DNA of 60,191 nucleotides from a virus. The notes beneath the pieces are model-generated. The model ran no database searches. It was not told where the DNA came from and saw nothing but the letters and a program-made list of their open reading frames with translations. Below, in pieces: positions 11,111-50,472 of the stretch (position 1 is its first letter; every line of letters begins with the position of its first letter). The DNA lies in the IMG/VR virus record IMGVR_UViG_3300032116_000205, positions 1-60,191 of that record; one strand, 5' to 3'. A program made the position numbers and the translations under genes.

Positions 11111-11686
11111 CTATTTACGCTGGGTATAGGTGTGTATATCTCCGGCAGTAAAGGCATCCCATTGTTTTGCAATCTCAATTGACTTGCGGATCATCTTCTC
11201 TGCTTGTTCGGGGGTCCTACATTTCTCATAACCTTGAGCACACATAGCTCCAAGGGCATAGGACGAACCACTACCGGCTATGTATATGTTTCTTTCTTCT
11301 CTGTCCCATGAGTAATCCTCAAATATTGGATATAAAACCCCTTGAATGGAAACGATTAAATTAGAGTCAAAGCTAGCTGTGTCCCCGTCGTCCTTCATAT
11401 CAAAACCAGAATCAATAAATAACTTTCTTAGTTCTGGTATAAACCTTTTGGTCATAAAAGTGTCTAGGGCCTGTAAAGTTAAAGTTGACTTTGGCTTTGG
11501 TGGTTTCCAACCAAATTGGACCAAGTTACCGCCTCTTGATGCTCCGGCTACGGCAATTAAATATCCGTTGTTCTCTACAACCTTTGGTGTTGCTAGTTGC
11601 ATGACCATGCCGTTGTCTTCAGTTGCACGACTATCGCAACCTATTGCGGTCCAGCCGTTACCTTGAACTGCCACTAATGTGGTCAA
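11111..11686 (-). CDS. Proteasome beta-subunit/HslV-like Ntn hydrolase
   Basis: The N-terminus MTTLVAVQGNGWTAIGCDSR is laid out like mature proteasome beta subunits and HslV (T-T-x-V-A, then G-x-D-S-R about 14 residues later). Removal of Met1 would expose Thr2 as the N-terminal nucleophile. Further matches are the KVVENNGYLIAVAGA strand pair (35-49) and GSGSSYALGAM (about 136-146), which resembles the conserved GSGSxYA of beta subunits. At 191 aa without a propeptide it is HslV-like in size. Its role in the phage is unknown: a self-assembling protease, or a decoy for the host proteasome, are options. Confidence 0.75.
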   Translation of the reverse strand: MTTLVAVQGNGWTAIGCDSRATEDNGMVMQLATPKVVENNGYLIAVAGASRGGNLVQFGWKPPKPKSTLTLQALDTFMTKRFIPELRKLFIDSGFDMKDDGDTASFDSNLIVSIQGVLYPIFEDYSWDREERNIYIAGSGSSYALGAMCAQGYEKCRTPEQAEKMIRKSIEIAKQWDAFTAGDIHTYTQRK

Positions 11687-18884: not shown

Positions 18885-19742
18885 TTACTCCTCCGTGTAA
18901 TTGCTACATTTGTTACAGCCGGCTACGCCGTTAATATTACATGTAGGGGGTACTCCCCCGTCAACTGCTGAAATGATTTGAGCAGCGTGATCAAATAGCT
19001 CAGCCACCCCAAAATCGCTTTTTGCAATTACAAACTCTTTTACCTCGTGCAAACCTTTGGCTTCATAAAGAATCAAGGCTTCTTTAGGGGCATTAGGTAG
19101 ACCCATTAATTCCATAAGCTTCATGTAAATCTGAGCTTGTTGGATATGCTCGTGAAACGGGGCCTTAACAGCATCCCACATGCTTTTAAAGTCAGGATTG
19201 TTCATGCCAATCTCTGGTGCATACCAACGAATACTGCCTTCTCCAATAGATTTAACTTCTAACAGAAGAGGGTCACCAAATTCGACAAGCCATCCATCTG
19301 CGTGACCGGAAATCCTTAACGGATCAAAACTTAAAGGAACTTCTTCGTAAACAACGTTGTACTTGCATTTACCTGGGTGGTCAGAAGGTAAACCAAAATA
19401 TTCTTTTTTACATACGGTGCAAAACCATTTTCCTTTTAATTTGCCCATCTCATGAAACCAGTTTTGCCAAGTTTTGTGAATACTGTGACCTTGAGCAAAT
19501 ATCAATGCTCTGCGAAGTCCAACTGGTTCGTGCTTTGGCTTTTCACCTTTTAACCAAAAGTATTGAGCTCTGTGACACCAAGAAGCGGATGCCATCTCAG
19601 ACGGATGTATAACTAATGAAGATCTATTTGAAGGAGGTCTGCTAAGTAAGTATCTGTCTACGTGACCAATTACTCGACTGCTTTTATCCGTCGCCAAAAA
19701 TGCTTTTAACGCACCTGATGGTCTTACTTTTTCTTTACCCAT
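18885..19742 (-). CDS. Cas4/RecB-like PD-(D/E)XK exonuclease
   Basis: The exonuclease motifs are GHSIH (85-89), RISGHADGW (143-151, Asp149) and LLLEVKS (159-165, Glu162 and Lys164), the D-ExK core of the RecB/Cas4 superfamily. Cys56 and the C-terminal triplet C268, C276, C279 match the [4Fe-4S] cysteines of Cas4 and AddB. An extra cysteine group (C108, C111, C126) sits between the helical and nuclease segments and may bind zinc. Phage Cas4-like nucleases process DNA ends for recombination. The neighbouring RecA supports this role. Confidence 0.82.
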   Translation of the reverse strand: MGKEKVRPSGALKAFLATDKSSRVIGHVDRYLLSRPPSNRSSLVIHPSEMASASWCHRAQYFWLKGEKPKHEPVGLRRALIFAQGHSIHKTWQNWFHEMGKLKGKWFCTVCKKEYFGLPSDHPGKCKYNVVYEEVPLSFDPLRISGHADGWLVEFGDPLLLEVKSIGEGSIRWYAPEIGMNNPDFKSMWDAVKAPFHEHIQQAQIYMKLMELMGLPNAPKEALILYEAKGLHEVKEFVIAKSDFGVAELFDHAAQIISAVDGGVPPTCNINGVAGCNKCSNYTEE

Positions 19743-20050
19743 TCTTCGAGTGTCTTCCCGTTCTTGGTCGCCTTACGCTTAAGAGCATTACGCTCTCTGT
19801 GGCTAAGACCGCCCCATATGCCGTGTTGTTCATCGTTTTGGTCCGAATACAGTAAGCACTCTATTCGCACAGGACATTCTGCCTTACCATCCTTGCCAAA
19901 GCAAACCGCCTTGGCTTTATCGGCAATAGGCTTATATTTAGTTTTATCTCTGGGGGGAAACCAGTAATCAGTCTCGGGACTTGAGCACATGCCGCGACAC
20001 TTGGCTTGGTATCGCCACTTTTCTACGCCTTCGTCTTCGTACAAGAGCAC
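19724..20050 (-). CDS. whiB: Second WhiB-family regulator, variant cluster
   Basis: C18 or C22, C50, C59 and C65, then HGIWGGLSHRER (76-87) and a basic helix (RNALKRKATKNGKT), identify a WhiB protein. It differs from the usual CxxC-x5-C: C50 and C59 are 8 residues apart because of an insert (FGKDGK). The insertion may alter cluster stability or ligand choice. It overlaps the Cas4-like gene by 19 bases and the Hjc-like gene by 28. The 108 aa include a longer N-terminus than the phage WhiB at 5566. Confidence 0.87.
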   Translation of the reverse strand: MLLYEDEGVEKWRYQAKCRGMCSSPETDYWFPPRDKTKYKPIADKAKAVCFGKDGKAECPVRIECLLYSDQNDEQHGIWGGLSHRERNALKRKATKNGKTLEEWVKKK

Positions 20051-40145: not shown

Positions 40146-41222
40146 CTACTTCGTTGGCGCAATGGCCGCTGCAGTTTTTTCAACAGATGCAATACCAGCA
40201 GAAGCCATAAGGTTCATAGCGATGCTTACGTCTGTTCTAATTGGGGTCATATCTTGAGCAAAAGCAATATGAGTTACGTTTAGGTTGTTTATATACCCTA
40301 CGTAAGACAAAGGACCAATATCAACACGCAAAAGCGTTGCAGCTAGGTAACCAATATCTCCAGTAGAACGACCGGTAATACTCTTCCAATCAGGTCCGTT
40401 AACCGCTTTATACAGATACTCTAAATCAGCAACTGTTCCATAGTTAACAAGGTCTAATATTTTGTCAGAAATTTTTCCAGCGTCTGCTTCTGCAAAAAAG
40501 CCAGTTTTGTAAAACTCAGCCATTCTTTCAAACGTTGCTGCAGACCCAGACCTTTGATCTAACTGTAGGTCAAACTCTTTTTGTAGCAAATGTTTCATAC
40601 AAGCAAAATCGTTAGTTCTATCTAAACGCAGCTGTAAAGAAAGAGTTTCCCCGCTTGGGAAGGCTCCGGCTACTGAAGCAAAGATGTCTGCAGGGTGCGG
40701 AGTAACTTCGGTGTTAAGCGCAACAGAAGTGCTAAAGGTGTCTGGGTTCCACATAAATTGAAAACCAATTCTTCTATCTTTACCAGTACTCTGAGTTTTT
40801 TCTTCACCAGTAGCCGTAACGTATGTGTTGTTAGCGTTGTAGTACCACCAGATACGACCGCGTCTGTACTTTTCAGGAACTTCTCCGGGAGGAGTTGTGT
40901 AACCCCATTTGCCCGGCTCTATGTATAGATCTGGTTCAACTATCTTTGGTTTTACAGGCAGGCTCCATTGATGTGGAGGTAAATTCCAGTCATAATCAAT
41001 TGGAAGTTTTAACGGCTTTACTTCTTTGTTCTTCTTGTTTTTGTTCTTTGATTTTTTATCTTTCTTTTTCTTTTGTTCTTCAGCCGCACGTACTTTTTGA
41101 CCTTCTGTTAGCCTTCTAAAACGTGCTCTTTCAGCCTCATCTTCGGCAGTTGCGTTAGGGTACTGAGTACCATAATTTTGAGGTGCTGTAGTTGTGCTAA
41201 ACGTGATACCTTCAATTGGCAT
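40146..41222 (-). CDS. Tail assembly/hub-associated protein (358 aa)
   Basis: The N-terminal 90 residues are low complexity with a very Lys-rich stretch (KKKKDKKSKNKNKKNKEVK), followed by a Pro-rich link (PIDYDWNLPPHQWSLPVKPK). The folded part (150-358) contains RIGFQFMWNPDTFSTSVALN and a GETLSLQLRLDRTNDF segment resembling tube- or hub-adaptor proteins. It lies between the tape measure and hub genes. It is unrecognised as a family but almost certainly virion-associated. Confidence 0.6.
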   Translation of the reverse strand: MPIEGITFSTTTAPQNYGTQYPNATAEDEAERARFRRLTEGQKVRAAEEQKKKKDKKSKNKNKKNKEVKPLKLPIDYDWNLPPHQWSLPVKPKIVEPDLYIEPGKWGYTTPPGEVPEKYRRGRIWWYYNANNTYVTATGEEKTQSTGKDRRIGFQFMWNPDTFSTSVALNTEVTPHPADIFASVAGAFPSGETLSLQLRLDRTNDFACMKHLLQKEFDLQLDQRSGSAATFERMAEFYKTGFFAEADAGKISDKILDLVNYGTVADLEYLYKAVNGPDWKSITGRSTGDIGYLAATLLRVDIGPLSYVGYINNLNVTHIAFAQDMTPIRTDVSIAMNLMASAGIASVEKTAAAIAPTK

Positions 41223-43549
41223 TACTTAGACACCGCCTTTTCTCTTATATTGTCCACACTAAGAATCTTTTTAACTTCCCTAGCAATTTCTTTTGCATCT
41301 GCCGCTGTTTTTTCAGGCATATGGAAGTTTACCGTTACTCCGCCATAATTAACTGTTGCTCCATGGGATTGAGCATTTGTCATTGATCCCATGTCAGTTG
41401 AAGACACAATAGAAGGACCACCAGAACCAATAATTAGACCCGATGGATTTCGGCTCATTACTAGATCTGAACTAGGTGCAGGCTGTGCTCCCTCAACAAT
41501 AGACGGAGTTCCTGCGCCCGCAAGCCATGCGCTTGGATCCATCTTTTGACCATTTTTGCGTACCTCAAAGTGAAGGTGGGCTCCGGTAGATTGTCCAGAG
41601 TTTCCGCTATAACCAACAAGGTCTCCAGCTTTAACACGAGTTCCACCAGTAGCTATCTTGCTACTTAAGTGGCCATAAAATAGTTGTGCCCCATCTTCTG
41701 TAACAAGCTTTATGTAATTTCCAAAACCAGGAGCGTCATAAGGTGTTGCTTCTATAACACCATTAGCGGATGCAAAAACTGGAGTGCCTTCTGGCAAACC
41801 GTAGTCAATTCCGCCGTGACCTTCTCCGTAGGATGGGCTCTTCTTTCCATTAAACATTAAGTGACGAACTACACCAAACGGACTTGTAATTGAGTAATTT
41901 CCTTGGAACGGCATTACATAGCCGGAAGCTCCTGCGCCCTCTCCGCCACCTTTACCGCCAGGATTGCTGTTTCTAGCAATTCCAACTCCACCTTGAACAG
42001 CGCCTACAGCAGTTCCAGCAATTGCTCCAGGAAGACCTCCAGCAACTAATCCAGTAGCTGCGCCTTGTCCAGTATCAAAAGCAAAATTTCCAATATCTCT
42101 AATAAATTCAGGTCCAGCATAATTTTCGTTTAACCAATCCTGGACTTTATCTAGTCCAGCGTAAGCTCCAGCAGCAAGACCAGCTCTTCCTAAACCTCCC
42201 AAGAAACTTTTTGGCATGAACTTGCCAAATTTTCCAAACAAACCGCCCTTGGCTCCACCGGCTGCTGTTGCACCACCGCCACCACCAAATAAATTTTTAA
42301 TTCCGCCAAAAGCTTTTCCAGCCATCATTGCGGCGCCACCACCAAGTACTCCAAGGATTCCTGCGCCAGCACCATTACCTGATGCTCCAATTGTGTCAAT
42401 AAAACCTTTACCTTCAAGAATTTTACGGAACGCATCTCCCATTAAACCCGCATCTCTTGCTATGTCGGCAACTTTATTGCTTGCCGCTGCAAGAAGATCA
42501 TTAGCAGCTTCAAATCCTTTTAGAACAGATGGGGCAACTGCTTGAGTAGCATTTAACGATGCTGCGTTTTTATCGCTTGTACTTAAAACGGCACTAGTGG
42601 TTGCGCCTTCTTGAGCCAAAGTCGCTTTATTTAGAGAGGATCCTTTACCACCAGTTCCAGCAAGAAGCATAAGTTCTGAAATAACTGATTGACGAAGGAT
42701 TGGGTCATTGCCAAAATATTGGTTAAGCATTGAGTCAAGAGCATTACCAGGTTGCAATGAGAACGAAATTTGTTCTTTAGTGATTGCACCTTCGCCAGTC
42801 TTACCTTTGTTAAGTACTTTCCAAAGGTCTTTAGCAATGTCTTGGAATCCACGCATCATTCCATCTGCGCCACGAACGTTAACGCCAATCATGCGAAGCA
42901 TGTTTACGTTACGTCCTTGGTTTAACGCAGCTGTAGCCTGCATACCTCCAGATAGACCAACACCTGGCATTAAGTTAGATATTGCTGCTGCGCTTTGACC
43001 AACTTGATTAAAGTTCTTTAAGCCAGGCATTATGCCCATGCTTGCGCCAAGCATTGTGGCGCGGGCTGCGTCTAAAGTATCAGTAGTAGTTCCTTGACGA
43101 GCCATTCGCATTTGAGTTGCGTTGGCATTGGCTCCACCATAGAAACCAAAACGGGATCTTAATAAATCTTGTTCAAAAGATTGTTCAACTGTAGGAATGC
43201 CCTGCAATCCAGCAAGAGCAATTTTGCCAGTTCCTTTTAGTAACGCTGCGCCAGCGCTCTTTAGGAATCCTCCAAAGCCACCGCCTTGGCTTCCATCATT
43301 TTCTGTAGCAGTTTTTGTTCCCGTGGAAGTTCCCATACTTCCATTGAGAAGATTGCCTGAACCGCCACCAGGGAAAGAGCCTTTTAAGTTTCTAGATATC
43401 TCCGCCGATAAATCGCGGGTGCGCTCAAGCTCTTTATTTAACTGTTTAAAGGCAGACGTAAGATCGGCAACAAGTTCGGTTTTGCGACCGAAAATGCCAC
43501 CACCGCCACTGGTTCCCATGGCTGTGCCGGTATTTTTTTTAGCCAACAC
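41222..43549 (-). CDS. Tape measure protein with C-terminal M23 endopeptidase
   Basis: The start is GTG 43549, overlapping the preceding TAG as TAGTG. The first 540 residues are helical and Gly/Ala rich with hydrophobic segments (GGLGRAGLAAGAYAGLDKVQ), as in tape measure proteins. The end (about 545-680) is an M23 zinc peptidase: GHGGIDYG (His and Asp ligands) and GAHLHFEVRK (His-x-His), which cut peptidoglycan cross-links. At 775 aa the predicted tail is short if the usual length relation holds. It follows the tail chaperone, the standard order. Confidence 0.85.
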   Translation of the reverse strand: MLAKKNTGTAMGTSGGGGIFGRKTELVADLTSAFKQLNKELERTRDLSAEISRNLKGSFPGGGSGNLLNGSMGTSTGTKTATENDGSQGGGFGGFLKSAGAALLKGTGKIALAGLQGIPTVEQSFEQDLLRSRFGFYGGANANATQMRMARQGTTTDTLDAARATMLGASMGIMPGLKNFNQVGQSAAAISNLMPGVGLSGGMQATAALNQGRNVNMLRMIGVNVRGADGMMRGFQDIAKDLWKVLNKGKTGEGAITKEQISFSLQPGNALDSMLNQYFGNDPILRQSVISELMLLAGTGGKGSSLNKATLAQEGATTSAVLSTSDKNAASLNATQAVAPSVLKGFEAANDLLAAASNKVADIARDAGLMGDAFRKILEGKGFIDTIGASGNGAGAGILGVLGGGAAMMAGKAFGGIKNLFGGGGGATAAGGAKGGLFGKFGKFMPKSFLGGLGRAGLAAGAYAGLDKVQDWLNENYAGPEFIRDIGNFAFDTGQGAATGLVAGGLPGAIAGTAVGAVQGGVGIARNSNPGGKGGGEGAGASGYVMPFQGNYSITSPFGVVRHLMFNGKKSPSYGEGHGGIDYGLPEGTPVFASANGVIEATPYDAPGFGNYIKLVTEDGAQLFYGHLSSKIATGGTRVKAGDLVGYSGNSGQSTGAHLHFEVRKNGQKMDPSAWLAGAGTPSIVEGAQPAPSSDLVMSRNPSGLIIGSGGPSIVSSTDMGSMTNAQSHGATVNYGGVTVNFHMPEKTAADAKEIAREVKKILSVDNIREKAVSK

Positions 43550-43701
43550 TAACTCCTACGTCTGTTAATGGCTCGTTCGAGCCAGTTCTTTCTTTCTCTG
43601 AAAGACAGTGACAGTACATCTGTCAAAGTCCAGCCGGGGTATGCTCGAGTTAGTGCTTCAAATTGGTCCAGTAAGTTTTCGTAATCTTCGTGCTTATATG
43701 C
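43549..43701 (-). CDS. Frameshift extension of the tail assembly chaperone (50 aa)
   Basis: An open frame +1 relative to the 264-aa chaperone runs from GCA (43701-43699) to TAG (43551-43549), encoding a good protein-like segment: YKHEDYENLLDQFEALTRAY, then GWTLTDVLSLSFRERKNWLE. It has no ATG, GTG or TTG start near its beginning and an in-frame stop just upstream, so it is most likely read by frameshifting. Its ending overlaps the tape measure start. This is the gpG-gpGT arrangement found in front of tape measure genes in many phages. Confidence 0.8.
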   Translation of the reverse strand, partial: AYKHEDYENLLDQFEALTRAYPGWTLTDVLSLSFRERKNWLERAINRRRS

Positions 43702-44488
43702 GAAACAAAGCAGCTAAGGTCAACGGCATAGGAATATCCTCACCGCATGCCTCGCATGCCTTCTTCACCTCCCCAAGGCGTGGGCCTGGGTTACGTTCAA
43801 GAATCTCTTGGACAATTGCTTCACGGTCTTTCCAACTTAGTTTCAAGACCGTAGATGCTCCGATAGATGGGCTTCCATTTATTGAAGCAACGCAACCTGC
43901 CAAAAGGATTGTGTTTAGTTCAGCTGAGTTCTTGTCGTTGTTTTCAAGCAAACGACGTTGTGTAACTCCCGTAGGAAGTCCAACAACTACTGTTCCCAAC
44001 TTAGACTCATATGTCCAGAGTCGATCTTCTTTTGGATCTTTTAGTTCGACAATTGGAATGTCCTTGGTTAGATCCAGAGTTAAAGTTTGCTCTGTTCTAC
44101 AGGACGGACAAGTGCCTGTGAAATCAATTGTGTTTCCAAAGGTTGCTCTACGGATTCCAATTAATATCGCATCTCTGTCGCCTGAAAGAAGAGTTTCTAA
44201 GTCTTCCTTAGACGCTTGCTCCATACCTAAACTGACCAGACCTCTTTGAAGCATTGTGTTTAAAGCACGACCAGTAGTTCCTGCTCTAGCAACAGCTTCT
44301 TCGTCTGCGCCGTTTAACTCTCTAACCTCAACATATTTGACCAAGGCGCCTTCCCGATTGATATATCCACCGGGAAGTGCGACCTCGGTATCAGACGGAG
44401 CCTGTGTTTCTACTTTTACAACAGGCTCCGCTGCTAAAGCTTTGACCGCTTGGTTAACGACTTTTGGATCTGAAATTAATTCTGCCAC
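43694..44488 (-). CDS. Tail assembly chaperone, T4 baseplate-type
   Basis: The protein (264 aa) ends ...ALFRI just ahead of the frameshift site. It resembles the phage tail-assembly/baseplate hub family placed between tube and tape measure genes: REGALVKYVEVRELNGADEE, a CPSC (about 129-132) ... CEAC (near 250-253) cysteine pair that could bind zinc, and TQRRLLENNDKNSAELNTIL. The two Cys pairs are 110 residues apart. A share of ribosomes should extend it by 50 residues. Transcribed from the tail operon. Confidence 0.7.
   Translation of the reverse strand: MAELISDPKVVNQAVKALAAEPVVKVETQAPSDTEVALPGGYINREGALVKYVEVRELNGADEEAVARAGTTGRALNTMLQRGLVSLGMEQASKEDLETLLSGDRDAILIGIRRATFGNTIDFTGTCPSCRTEQTLTLDLTKDIPIVELKDPKEDRLWTYESKLGTVVVGLPTGVTQRRLLENNDKNSAELNTILLAGCVASINGSPSIGASTVLKLSWKDREAIVQEILERNPGPRLGEVKKACEACGEDIPMPLTLAALFRI
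43699..43705 (-). promoter_or_regulatory. Candidate +1 frameshift site TTT_CGC
   Basis: Two codons before the chaperone's TAA the mRNA reads TTG-TTT-CGC-ATA-TAA. If the Phe-tRNA on UUU slips forward to UUC, reading continues GCA-TAT-AAG into the extension. UUU-C followed by an Arg codon is the type of motif used in influenza PA-X +1 frameshifting. I see no strong stimulating hairpin downstream. A -2 shift cannot be excluded. Confidence 0.65.
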
Positions 44489-44508: not shown

Positions 44509-45129
44509 TTAGAGTGCTGCCGGCCTTACTGGGTCGTATCCACCGGTTCCATTGGTAAAGAATACCGAAAGTCCTTCGTGGACAAGTCCAAGGGTTTCGA
44601 CCATAAGGTTGTTTCCGCCAGCATCTAGGTCAGAGTAGTTCAAAGTTGAAATCCATGCGTTGTGCACATGGAAGCCCATCTTTGGAGTATTTGATCCACC
44701 TTCACCGCTTGCGGTTGCTGTTGCGTTACTTGCTGCTGGATGATCAAGAACATAAATCTTGATATCGCAACGGAAGTCTTTACCACTGGTCAAAGCAATT
44801 CCGTCTCCGGCTGCTGCTGCAAACAGTGTACGCATCCAATCAATAGCCTGGTTGTTACCAAAGATAACTCCACGGTCCATAGTGATTGGGTTGAATGTTG
44901 TCATACCAGGTACCTGGTGAATGGTGGTGTTGTATCCACCTTCGCGGTACGCGATACTTTGTGTGTTAATGCCGAGACCGCTGATTGAACGAAAACCGCC
45001 AGTAAAGCCGGTAATCCGCTTGTCCACCGAAGAACCTTGTTGTGGTGGAAGGAACTCAGCGATAAATCGGAACGAGCGTAACGGATCGGTCGCCACACTC
45101 GAGAACCGATTAATTGTTGTATCTGCCAT
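44509..45129 (-). CDS. Tail tube protein, gp19-like
   Basis: The 206-residue protein has the tube-protein layout: DPLRSFRFIAEFLPPQQGSS (15-34), ISGLGINTQSIAYREGGYNT (about 49-68) and MDRGVIFGNNQAIDWM, and a conserved AWISTLNYSDLDAGGNNLMV near the C-terminus, as in T4 gp19-like tubes and the related Hcp fold. It lies between the sheath gene and the chaperone, the usual order. A GGAG ribosome-binding site precedes the ATG. Confidence 0.9.
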   Translation of the reverse strand: MADTTINRFSSVATDPLRSFRFIAEFLPPQQGSSVDKRITGFTGGFRSISGLGINTQSIAYREGGYNTTIHQVPGMTTFNPITMDRGVIFGNNQAIDWMRTLFAAAAGDGIALTSGKDFRCDIKIYVLDHPAASNATATASGEGGSNTPKMGFHVHNAWISTLNYSDLDAGGNNLMVETLGLVHEGLSVFFTNGTGGYDPVRPAAL

Positions 45130-45144
45130 GTTTGGTTATCTCCT

Positions 45145-46641
45145 TTACGCCGTAGTAACGGTGGTGCCACCGTCAAACTGACCGATTTTAATAACTACGA
45201 ACTCGGCTGGGCGTTGTAGAGCCACACCAACTTCGATGTTAACTAATCCAGCGTCAATGGACTGTTGTGGGTTCAATTCAGCGTCACATTTTACATAAAA
45301 TGCTTGTGCTGGGATTGAGCCACGTAGACCGCCTGAGCGCCAGAAGTTATTTAAGAAGCCTTCCAAAGTTGCAACAATTCGACGCCAAGTCTTTTCATCG
45401 TTTGGCTCAAAGATTGCGAACTGGGTTAGCTCTGATAAGGACTTGCGTAGATAGATGAGAGTACGACGAACTGGAACATACTTGTCTACGTATGAACCAA
45501 GAAGCGTGCGTGAACCCATAACTACAATTCCTGAACCAGGAACAAACTTGATTGCGTTAACTGCAGCCGCGTTGCTGTTCATTCCATCCAACTGAGCGTT
45601 GGTTAGTGGACGAACTGAAACTGCGCCTCCAACTCGAGTGCTGAGACCAGCAGGTGCCTTAAAGACTCCTCGAGCTGCATCGGTTCCTAGGTATAGACCA
45701 ACAATTGCTCCACCTGGTGCTACTTCACGAGTAACTCCTGGGGTTGTAACTGCTGGGTCTTTAATTGTGATTGGTGGGTAGTACACAGCACCGTAAGAGG
45801 TAGCTGTATAAGAATCTGCTCTTGTAATTTGATTATCTACAGATCCAAAAACTGGGTCAATAACAACAAATACGTCTCCGCGGTTTGATGCGTAGGTAGT
45901 CATTGCGTTGACAGCAGCTGCTTCTGTAACTCCAGGAGCGTTTAGAACTAGCGAGTTCAAGACAGTATCAAAACGAACAACTTCGTTAGATATTTCTACC
46001 TCACTAACAGAACCAGTTCCGTTAGTTCCACCAGCTAATGATTGGTTTGTAGAAACTACTGGTAGTCGGGCTGAGCCGGTAGCAGTAGATCCTTCATCAA
46101 CAGCTGAGATGAACTTAGATTGAGAATTGATGATATCAATCACATAGCGATCGTTACCAGGTGTCATAGAAAGATCTGTGTATCTTTCTACAACATTGCT
46201 ATTTGCGGTTCCACCAAACTTTACAGTGATGTCTACATTGTTTGCTGTAGCAGAGTTCGCAATGCTGATATTAATGTCATTTCCCCAAGCACCAGCATTC
46301 TTTGAATTGATGGTGAGGGTAGCGTCTGCCGTTGGGGTGACGCGGTCATTAAATGTACGGGTAGCAACGTCTGCATCAGCATTTGCTGCACGCAAGAAGT
46401 ATGCTTGATTACCACCGTTTGAGAAGAACAACAGCGCTGCAACGTGCAACGGTGAGTCGTTCTCCCAGCCACCATACAGACTGACGTATTGACTCCAAGA
46501 TGTGACCAGAGTTGGAACAAGCGGACCACGATCTACGACGCCAACAAATGCAGCGATGGACTGTGAAGTGGCACTTTGAACTGGGGTTACTAAGTTAAGG
46601 GATTCCTCAACATAGACACCAGGCCGAAGGTATACAGCCAT
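45145..46641 (-). CDS. Tail sheath protein
   Basis: The 498-residue protein begins YLRPGVYVEESLNLVTPVQS, which matches tail sheath proteins, with SIAAFVGVVDRGPLVPTLVT and a C-terminal domain containing EPNDEKTWRRIVATLEGFLN and the terminal GVALQRPAEFVVIKIGQFDG. These are the docking and contracting elements of sheath subunits. Expected to be highly expressed late. It is preceded by a strong AGGAG ribosome-binding site. Confidence 0.95.
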   Translation of the reverse strand: MAVYLRPGVYVEESLNLVTPVQSATSQSIAAFVGVVDRGPLVPTLVTSWSQYVSLYGGWENDSPLHVAALLFFSNGGNQAYFLRAANADADVATRTFNDRVTPTADATLTINSKNAGAWGNDINISIANSATANNVDITVKFGGTANSNVVERYTDLSMTPGNDRYVIDIINSQSKFISAVDEGSTATGSARLPVVSTNQSLAGGTNGTGSVSEVEISNEVVRFDTVLNSLVLNAPGVTEAAAVNAMTTYASNRGDVFVVIDPVFGSVDNQITRADSYTATSYGAVYYPPITIKDPAVTTPGVTREVAPGGAIVGLYLGTDAARGVFKAPAGLSTRVGGAVSVRPLTNAQLDGMNSNAAAVNAIKFVPGSGIVVMGSRTLLGSYVDKYVPVRRTLIYLRKSLSELTQFAIFEPNDEKTWRRIVATLEGFLNNFWRSGGLRGSIPAQAFYVKCDAELNPQQSIDAGLVNIEVGVALQRPAEFVVIKIGQFDGGTTVTTA

Positions 46642-49422: not shown

Positions 49423-50472
49423 TTATTCACTGTAGAAGACTAGGTTACGCTTTAGGCGCTCGTCTGTAGGGTTTAACTCAACCGCCTTTTCGCCGTACTC
49501 CTTTGCTTTGTCTGTAAGTCCTAAATGATGTGAGGCAATTGCCGCATAATCGTATGGTGCCGAACCCCATGCAAACTCTTCGCATAAGTACTCAAGTGGT
49601 TTTTCTGTAATACGAAGCGCCTCTTCCGCTACGTCAAGGCAGTCAAACCAACGGTTGTTTTCATAATAAAGTTTGGCTAACTCTACGTAAGCCTCCCGTC
49701 TATCTGGTGCTTCTTCAACGGCTTTTTTAAACCAATCTTCAGCTCCCATAAAATCATCAGACATCTTTGCAATGTAACGCATAGATGCTGCTCTTTCAGG
49801 TTTCCACACTGCCCGTGGTAGAGATAAGTGACGCTTAAACTCTTCTGTTGCTTCTGCAAACTTTCCATAAAAGAATAATTCTCTGGCGTAGTAAAACGCG
49901 TTCCTATCATCGTGTGGGTCTTCAATTACAGATTGAGCCAATAACGGGAAATACTGAGAGCGTGGTTTAGTGTCGTCTGGGTGATGATGGATCTCAAGTC
50001 CTACCCAATTTTCAATTTGTTGTATTCGATCAGTTACCAATACTTCGTGGACAGGATGCTTCCAACGATAGCCGTGGCGTTTGTGGATCTTGTCTCCACC
50101 ATACTGAAGACCAGGAGACCCGTCGGGGTTCCAGTTCCAGGTGTATTTGTAGCGTGGTCTGGTTGTTTGTGTTGGGACAGCCTCTAGGTGTTTACGCCAT
50201 CCTTCAACTAATACCTCATCCATATCCAAAGCAATACAGTAGTCAATATCATTTGGAAGCGCTGCAAGGGATGCATTGCGTGCATCGTCAAACCGCCAAG
50301 GTTTTACAGAAATAGATATAACATTGATACCAAGTTCTTTGGCTAGTTCAACCGTATTGTCTGTAGACCCGGTGTCCGCAATTAATAAGTAGTCAGCTTC
50401 TTTAGCGGACTCATACCACTTATGAACAAATTGTTGTTCATTAAGGGCGATTGTGTAAACCGCTATTTTCAT
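49423..50472 (-). CDS. GT2-family glycosyltransferase with TPR-like C-terminus
   Basis: The first 120 residues form a GT-A domain: DYLLIADTGSTDNTVELAKE (27-46) and the DxD motif IALDMDE (80-86), plus WRFDDARNASLAA, a signature for inverting family 2 transferases. Residues about 180-340 are TPR-like helical repeats (ERAASMRYIAKMSDDFMGAE and AYVELAKLYYENNRWFDCLD). The fusion GT2-TPR occurs in phages and bacteria that modify surface proteins or polysaccharides. It lies within the structural block, so virion protein glycosylation is possible. Confidence 0.8.
   Translation of the reverse strand: MKIAVYTIALNEQQFVHKWYESAKEADYLLIADTGSTDNTVELAKELGINVISISVKPWRFDDARNASLAALPNDIDYCIALDMDEVLVEGWRKHLEAVPTQTTRPRYKYTWNWNPDGSPGLQYGGDKIHKRHGYRWKHPVHEVLVTDRIQQIENWVGLEIHHHPDDTKPRSQYFPLLAQSVIEDPHDDRNAFYYARELFFYGKFAEATEEFKRHLSLPRAVWKPERAASMRYIAKMSDDFMGAEDWFKKAVEEAPDRREAYVELAKLYYENNRWFDCLDVAEEALRITEKPLEYLCEEFAWGSAPYDYAAIASHHLGLTDKAKEYGEKAVELNPTDERLKRNLVFYSE

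Follow-up and report, generated by a model that had tools for sequence, protein, structure and literature searches.

The 60,191-nucleotide stretch of viral DNA analyzed here (IMG/VR virus record IMGVR_UViG_3300032116_000205, positions 1 to 60,191; henceforth the window) carries on its minus strand a tail module in the order sheath, gp19-type tube protein, a gene that we call G, an extension of G in another reading frame, and tape measure protein. The position of G, between the tube and tape-measure genes, is that of the G/GT tail assembly chaperones, in which a frameshift near the 3' end adds a short second domain (T). Comparison with related sequences leads us to regard the gene pair, with a probability of roughly 0.92, as the G/GT tail assembly chaperone of a contractile-tailed actinobacteriophage, GT being made by programmed +1 frameshifting. 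The G-GT frameshift of tail chaperones is well known; what would be new are the +1 direction, the class of the site and the candidate upstream RNA signals.

G opens with a GTG (44488), its stop codon TAA finishes at 43694, and its 3' end reads GCT GCT TTG TTT CGC ATA TAA. On the minus strand the putative slip codon TTT occupies 43705–43703 and CGC 43702–43700. A preliminary description of this DNA had given the 264-amino acid gene the ending TTT-CGC-ATA-TAA, correctly, and the span that it marked (43705–43549) runs from the slip UUU through the last base of the extension's stop. It had also described a +1 frame open for about 50 codons to the tape-measure start with a stop upstream, and this is what we find: beyond a TAG at 43716–43714 the +1 frame stays open until a TAG at 43551–43549. 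Any shift is confined to the approximately 20 nucleotides separating the +1 stop from the 0-frame stop and, among the codons of this overlap (GCT, GCT, TTG, TTT, CGC, ATA), TTT alone re-pairs at +1, onto UUC, the codon preferred by tRNA-Phe(GAA). Read from the slipped TTC (43704–43702), the extension is FAYKHEDYENLLDQFEALTRAYPGWTLTDVLSLSFRERKNWLERAINRRRS, i.e. Phe followed by 50 codons. It contains no ATG or GTG, and the sole start-like codon in it, at codon index 26, is a TTG that falls within the conserved core. The -1 frame is closed in the window and is not conserved in the clade; a -1 heptamer (X_XXY_YYZ) with an open and conserved -1 frame, named in the preliminary description as contrary evidence, was found in no relative of this clade.

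Relatives were gathered in four scans, two against IMG/VR and one each against GTDB genomes and GenBank phages, which together gave 167 usable loci, 131 of them distinct loci with a complete 3' region and with identity down to about 30–35%. The site finder was limited to TTT with C or T as the next base, close to the stop, and each locus yielded one; in the printed contexts the detected site coincides with the invariant Phe of the alignment. Locus L172 (Streptomyces sp. AP-93), with neither site nor extension, was excluded from the 131. All 131 end the 0 frame with the pattern ...NTN-TTT-CNN...stop (one with TTT-T). TTT stands at the last conserved Phe in every one, 2–7 codons before the 0-frame stop (which is 3 or 4 codons past UUU in 126), and the next base is C in 130 and T in the remaining one, where UUU to UUU also re-pairs. 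The conservation of TTTC that had been proposed as a check is thus borne out. In most close relatives the +1-frame stop lies at -20 or -26 relative to the 0-frame stop. In 131 of 131 the +1 frame then encodes the same domain (pattern YxxLLDxYExLTRxFxGWTLxDIRxLSxRERxxW), so that the earlier impression of a protein-like extension was well founded.

The choice of codon at the slip position carries much of the argument. TTT is kept in 94 of 94, 49 of 49 and 23 of 23 representatives when the proteins are clustered at 90, 70 and 50% identity, respectively, while at the remaining Phe positions of these genes TTC predominates over TTT; the last of these counts corresponds to a naive p of about 8e-18, in which relatedness is ignored. 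In relatives above 58% GC, TTT is at the site in 41 of 41, while the other Phe codons divide into 282 TTC and 6 TTT. A control position, the unvarying Phe in the TFG motif, has TTC in 13 of 13 GC-rich relatives. Given this contrast, neutral codon choice at the slip Phe is untenable on the sequence evidence. The flanking codons are constrained as well. CGN stands in the A site of 95 of 131 loci (73 of 76 in the AT-rich group, to which the window belongs) and CAG in that of 24, with CTC or others elsewhere. The E site holds UUG or CUG in 119 of 131; where it encodes Leu in the AT-rich group, the codon is NUG in 69 of 75 cases, compared with 23% for Leu codons in the rest of those genes. Taken as comparative evidence, the case for a genuine programmed +1 shift is very strong.

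Table. Tail genes and candidate frameshift signals in the window (distances in the last column are in nucleotides from UUU)
Feature	Positions	Strand	Basis or remark
Contractile tail sheath	45145-46641	-	Pfam PF17482 and PHROG 23
Tail tube protein, gp19 family, upstream of G	44509-45129	-	Pfam PF06841, E=5e-23
0-frame gene (G part), 264 amino acids	43694-44488	-	PF12322/T4 gp26-type, two CxxC pairs
Candidate stimulator, invariant GGGGAGGUGA	43765-43774	-	Codons GGG GAG GTG A; -69..-60
Possible second hairpin enclosing GGGGAGGUGA	43749-43779	-	RNAalifold consensus
Upstream RNA hairpin, candidate +1 stimulator	43723-43746	-	GCGGUG..UGCCGU with inner pairs; -41..-18
+1-frame stop TAG	43714-43716	-	Bounds the possible shift positions
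Putative shift site UUG_UUU_CGC	43700-43708	-	E-site Leu codon, P-site UUU slipping to UUC, A-site CGN
+1-frame extension (T part)	43549-43704	-	51 amino acids counted from the slip Phe
0-frame stop TAA	43694-43696	-	Third codon past UUU
Tape measure protein, M23 peptidase domain	41222-43549	-	Pfam PF01551, E=2e-25, and gene order

Two further candidate signals lie in the RNA upstream of the site. In a fold-energy scan with shuffled controls the segment -60..-3 was an outlier (mean z -1.56, 20 of 49 below -2; roughly -0.2 to -0.8 elsewhere), and a weaker excess remained at -39..-3 (mean z -0.83) when synonymous codons were shuffled with the protein preserved. Directly 3' of the site the scan gave no signal of downstream structure (mean z about 0). 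For the hairpin at -41..-18, 40 cells in the close clade are changed on both sides versus 13.3±2.9 in shuffles, and the covariation score is 0.317 versus 0.150±0.015, a value reached by 0 of 500 shuffles. The pair seen most clearly is between the wobble positions of one Cys and one Pro codon: among 57 AT-rich loci, 13 have TGC-CCG, 30 have TGT-CCA and none has TGT-CCG, while the 12 with TGC-CCA belong mostly to the BRock-like group without the hairpin. On the protein tree, these two silent positions need 14 and 12 changes when counted separately but only 15 when counted together, and a compensated switch accounts for 11 of 15 independent contrasts. In the window the hairpin ends 17 nucleotides before UUU, which is about the distance 5' of the P-site codon at which the mRNA exits the ribosome; judging from such general knowledge of the ribosome footprint, the hairpin could form while UUU occupies the P site. 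An outer stem (alignment columns 19–22 with 62–65) was dropped, only 56% of cells being paired in one register.

The other signal, GGGGAGGUGA, is present in 61 of 61 clade members and occurs once in the window. Its codons GGG, GAG and GTG are each found in 40 of 40 non-redundant members against backgrounds of 15%, 44% and 18%; in synonymous fixation GGG and GTG take the top two places among 94 columns, with the E-site TTG third. The element GGAGGUGA matches the anti-Shine-Dalgarno 3' end of 16S rRNA. A hairpin around this Shine-Dalgarno (SD)-like motif was dropped as a covariation-supported structure, since its pairs hardly vary. Both upstream hairpins and SD duplexes are published stimulators of +1 shifts on 70S ribosomes, on which a hairpin refolding just 5' of the site mimics an internal SD, raising +1 and damping -1 shifts (PMC6321510). 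As a separate observation, many lineages among the GC-rich and BRock-like loci L088–L173 have within -30..-3 a short hairpin ending 3–8 nucleotides before UUU, e.g. CCCAC-UGAAC-GUGGG in BRock and GCCGAU-UGGA-AUCGGC in L112, which would sit inside the ribosome with UUU in the P site.

As to the proteins, G matches Pfam T4_baseplate PF12322 (41.3 bits against a cut-off of 24.5, E=1.8e-10) and also PHROG 150, and databases label its family T4 'baseplate hub'. A search by sequence for a solved relative of G gave none. The two best PDB matches of an AlphaFold model of G (pLDDT, the predicted local distance difference test, 87.7) are the HK97 tail assembly chaperone 2ob9 (Foldseek probabilities 0.90 and 0.89; E 0.36–0.76), a suggestive likeness for the modelled fold of G; the model also matches predicted phage 'baseplate hub assembly' proteins with E down to 2e-20. 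For the extension, a profile comparison with P2 gpE' gave an hhalign E of 8e-5 for that single comparison (probability 60), besides weak matches to DUF6760 and P2_GpE. According to its annotation, P2 gpE' arises from a -1 frameshift and sits between E and T, the latter being the tape-measure gene. The T domain is accordingly a part of the same kind. Because of this likeness, the HK97 fold match and the gene order, sequence and model together favour G being a tail assembly chaperone rather than a 'baseplate hub'; T4 does not itself use a G-T frameshift (PMC5009743). The name 'tail chaperone' used in the preliminary description therefore runs against the database label but is well supported by fold, gpE' and gene order.

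Could the extension be a small gene of its own that is never fused to G, its translation starting at a non-standard codon or by re-initiation just past the 0-frame stop? Database entries of three Streptomyces phages (BRock gp135, LuckySocke gp91 and GiJojo gp83) cover part of it, a Streptomyces injection-system cluster has a DUF6760-like domain as an open reading frame (ORF) of its own with a GTG start, and 33 of the 131 loci have a start-like codon ahead of the domain core. In the other 98, however, there is no ATG, GTG or TTG ahead of the core, the annotated starts of BRock gp135 and LuckySocke gp91 fall within the conserved domain, and a separate gene would leave unexplained why TTT-C and the preceding NTG are fixed in the 0 frame. 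We consider it very unlikely. Re-initiation at a conserved start codon was rejected, as none is conserved among the relatives, which agrees with the earlier statement that the extension has no start of its own.

A -2 shift would reach the same frame as +1. It is reportedly used by phage Mu, and the cousins of Listeria LIS04 type carry TTTTTT, where -2 is possible, but at NUG_UUU the new codon would be UGU, a middle-base mismatch for tRNA-Phe, and the conserved C after UUU matters for +1 only; we give this explanation hardly any credence. Just as improbable is a coding coincidence, i.e. a shared Leu-Phe-Arg C-terminus overlapped by another gene with no programmed shift. Part of the conservation of the site does reflect real amino-acid conservation in both frames, yet silent positions are fixed too (TTT even in GC-rich genomes, and TTG at the E site in 38 of 39 against a background of 17%) and the covarying silent pairs upstream require an explanation at the RNA level.

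Some points tell against a frameshifted chaperone or limit how far the evidence reaches. As the top hits of a small number of scans, the 131 loci do not sample the family at random, and the naive p-values take no account of relatedness. The hairpin at -41..-18 and GGGGAGGUGA are confined to the close clade; the GC-rich relatives are without the SD-like motif and often have shorter, nearer hairpins. Being clade-specific, hairpin and motif are therefore not essential to the shift, while UUU_C is universal in the set. The motif, at 60 nucleotides from the slip, is too distant to act in the manner of RF2 unless the intervening RNA folds. The HK97 fold match is partial (E 0.36, TM-score 0.5–0.57 on the target). 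Finally, the case is comparative throughout: it speaks directly to the dual reading frame, the slip codon, the homology of the T domain and the close-clade hairpin, from which slippage, its efficiency, the roles of the stimulators and the chaperone function are inferred.

Compared with the G/GT systems of lambda, HK97 and P2 (E and E+E'), the proposed pair has the same position between tube and tape measure and the same short C-terminal domain, lying in another frame over the 3' end without a start of its own and reached by a frameshift at a conserved slippery site; its T is related by profile to P2 gpE' and the modelled fold of G resembles the HK97 chaperone. Those phages use -1 on a heptamer, whereas the shift here would be +1 at UUU_C, and G belongs, unlike theirs, to the T4 gp26 (PF12322) family with zinc-type CxxC pairs. 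For the site itself, the resemblance to influenza PA-X drawn in the preliminary description proved apt. By mass spectrometry, Firth et al. (2012, PMC3498833) traced PA-X to a +1 shift at UCC_UUU_CGU; they also proposed a UUU_C class with a preference for CGN in the A site, listing eukaryotic viruses and leaving cellular use open. Both share the P-site slip on UUU_C, the A-site preference and a constrained E-site codon; they differ in that codon (UCC in PA-X, UUG or CUG here), and the present case belongs to a 70S system, to unrelated genes and, in one clade, to a hairpin plus SD-like element.

The suggestion that +1 would be a rare solution in a phage holds insofar as the usual chaperone shift is -1, but there are precedents. 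The tail chaperone of HSTV-2, a haloarchaeal myovirus, 'very likely' uses +1 (PMC5009743), a prediction likewise concerning a contractile phage, but with an archaeal host. Listeria PSA, A118 and A500 have programmed +1 shifts in structural genes at CCC_UGA (PMC5009743); these differ in site (CCC_UGA or CCC_U) and affect capsid and major tail genes rather than the tail chaperone. The -1 case of P2 type is covered by the same review. PRFect drew on 350 forward candidate sites from SEA-PHAGES data (PMC10885494), so +1 chaperone annotations already exist; our search of the open-access literature turned up no account of UUU_C in a phage tail chaperone. The RF2 gene (prfB), with CUU_UGA and an SD upstream, is similar in the forward slip of the P-site tRNA and the upstream stimulator. 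It differs in having the SD a few nucleotides 5' and a stop codon in the A site; here the codon is a sense CGN, a hairpin is present and the SD-like motif is 60 nucleotides away.

Other relatives show other arrangements around the same position. In the distantly related Pseudomonas phage Paride (L086, 3480–3860) and an uncultured relative (L182) the domain is in the -1 frame behind T_TTT_TTC, a -1 tail-chaperone frameshift that is currently unannotated; in Listeria LIS04 and relatives (L085, L180, L181) TTT TTT is followed by A or C and the domain is in the +1 (or -2) frame. Phe codons are thus retained at the shift position across the family, with the direction varying. The DUF6760 domain of contractile injection systems resembles T in gene order (tube, gp26-like protein, small domain) and, weakly, in sequence, and differs in that, in the single locus examined, it is encoded by an ORF apart that begins at its own GTG. 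In this locus (L175, Streptomyces diastatochromogenes) a gp26-like protein is followed by the DUF6760-like ORF, which overlaps the previous stop by GTGA; the two are likely the counterparts of G and T as separate, coupled genes. A literature search on DUF6760 found no papers. The extension has been deposited as a separate hypothetical gene in BRock (gp135; L082, 5848–6030), LuckySocke (gp91; L083, 4881–5036) and GiJojo (gp83; L087, 2755–2952), and in Streptomyces phage pSt2308 (L084, 4724–4982) the region is without any annotation.

In the window, the stop of the extension shares one base with the GTG start of the tape measure (TAGTG, 43551–43547, minus strand); shifted ribosomes would hence terminate right at the tape-measure start, and translational coupling of the two is possible. 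The host is most likely an actinobacterium, since the window has a WhiB family gene (19724–20050, minus strand) and the hosts of named or prophage relatives are Streptomyces, Saccharothrix, Nonomuraea and Terracoccus. No tRNA gene relevant to the A-site codon was found in the window. Also on the minus strand are a proteasome-subunit-like protein (PF00227, E 4e-8; 11111–11686) and, adjoining the tail module, a family 2 glycosyltransferase with tetratricopeptide (TPR) repeats (49423–50472).

In the mechanism that we propose, most ribosomes would read UUG UUU CGC AUA UAA and stop, giving G of 264 amino acids, and some would skip one base at UUU, moving onto UUC and adding the 50-amino acid T domain through a Phe-Ala-Tyr-Lys junction. 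The rate of shifting is probably increased by the E-site UUG, by the GGAGGUGA element and by the hairpin, which would refold directly behind the ribosome. By analogy with lambda and P2, G would coat the tape measure and the T domain would recruit tube subunits, both G and GT presumably departing before the virion is completed. The fused junctions predicted for relatives are ...LFANSNYK in BRock and ...LFRNSDYELAYQEYEQLVDAYG... in LuckySocke, i.e. Phe-Ala or Phe-Arg. We lean slightly towards a broader view, in which a prokaryotic signal of PA-X type, compounded of the GGAGGUGA motif, a refolding hairpin and YUG_UUU_CGN, evolved in actinobacteriophages for the making of GT, and the entire T4 gp26 family is the G chaperone of contractile tails, its shift having changed direction (+1 or -1) around the same Phe codons.

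A frameshift of this kind would bring bacterial ribosomes, with more than 100 natural variants, into the UUU_CGN class of +1 sites, which was put forward on the basis of eukaryotic viruses, and would offer a natural candidate for an upstream hairpin driving the ribosome forward, an effect known from 70S reporter assays. It would call for corrected annotation of the Streptomyces phages BRock, LuckySocke, GiJojo and pSt2308, and it suggests a function in tail assembly, as a chaperone, for a family annotated until now as 'baseplate hub'.

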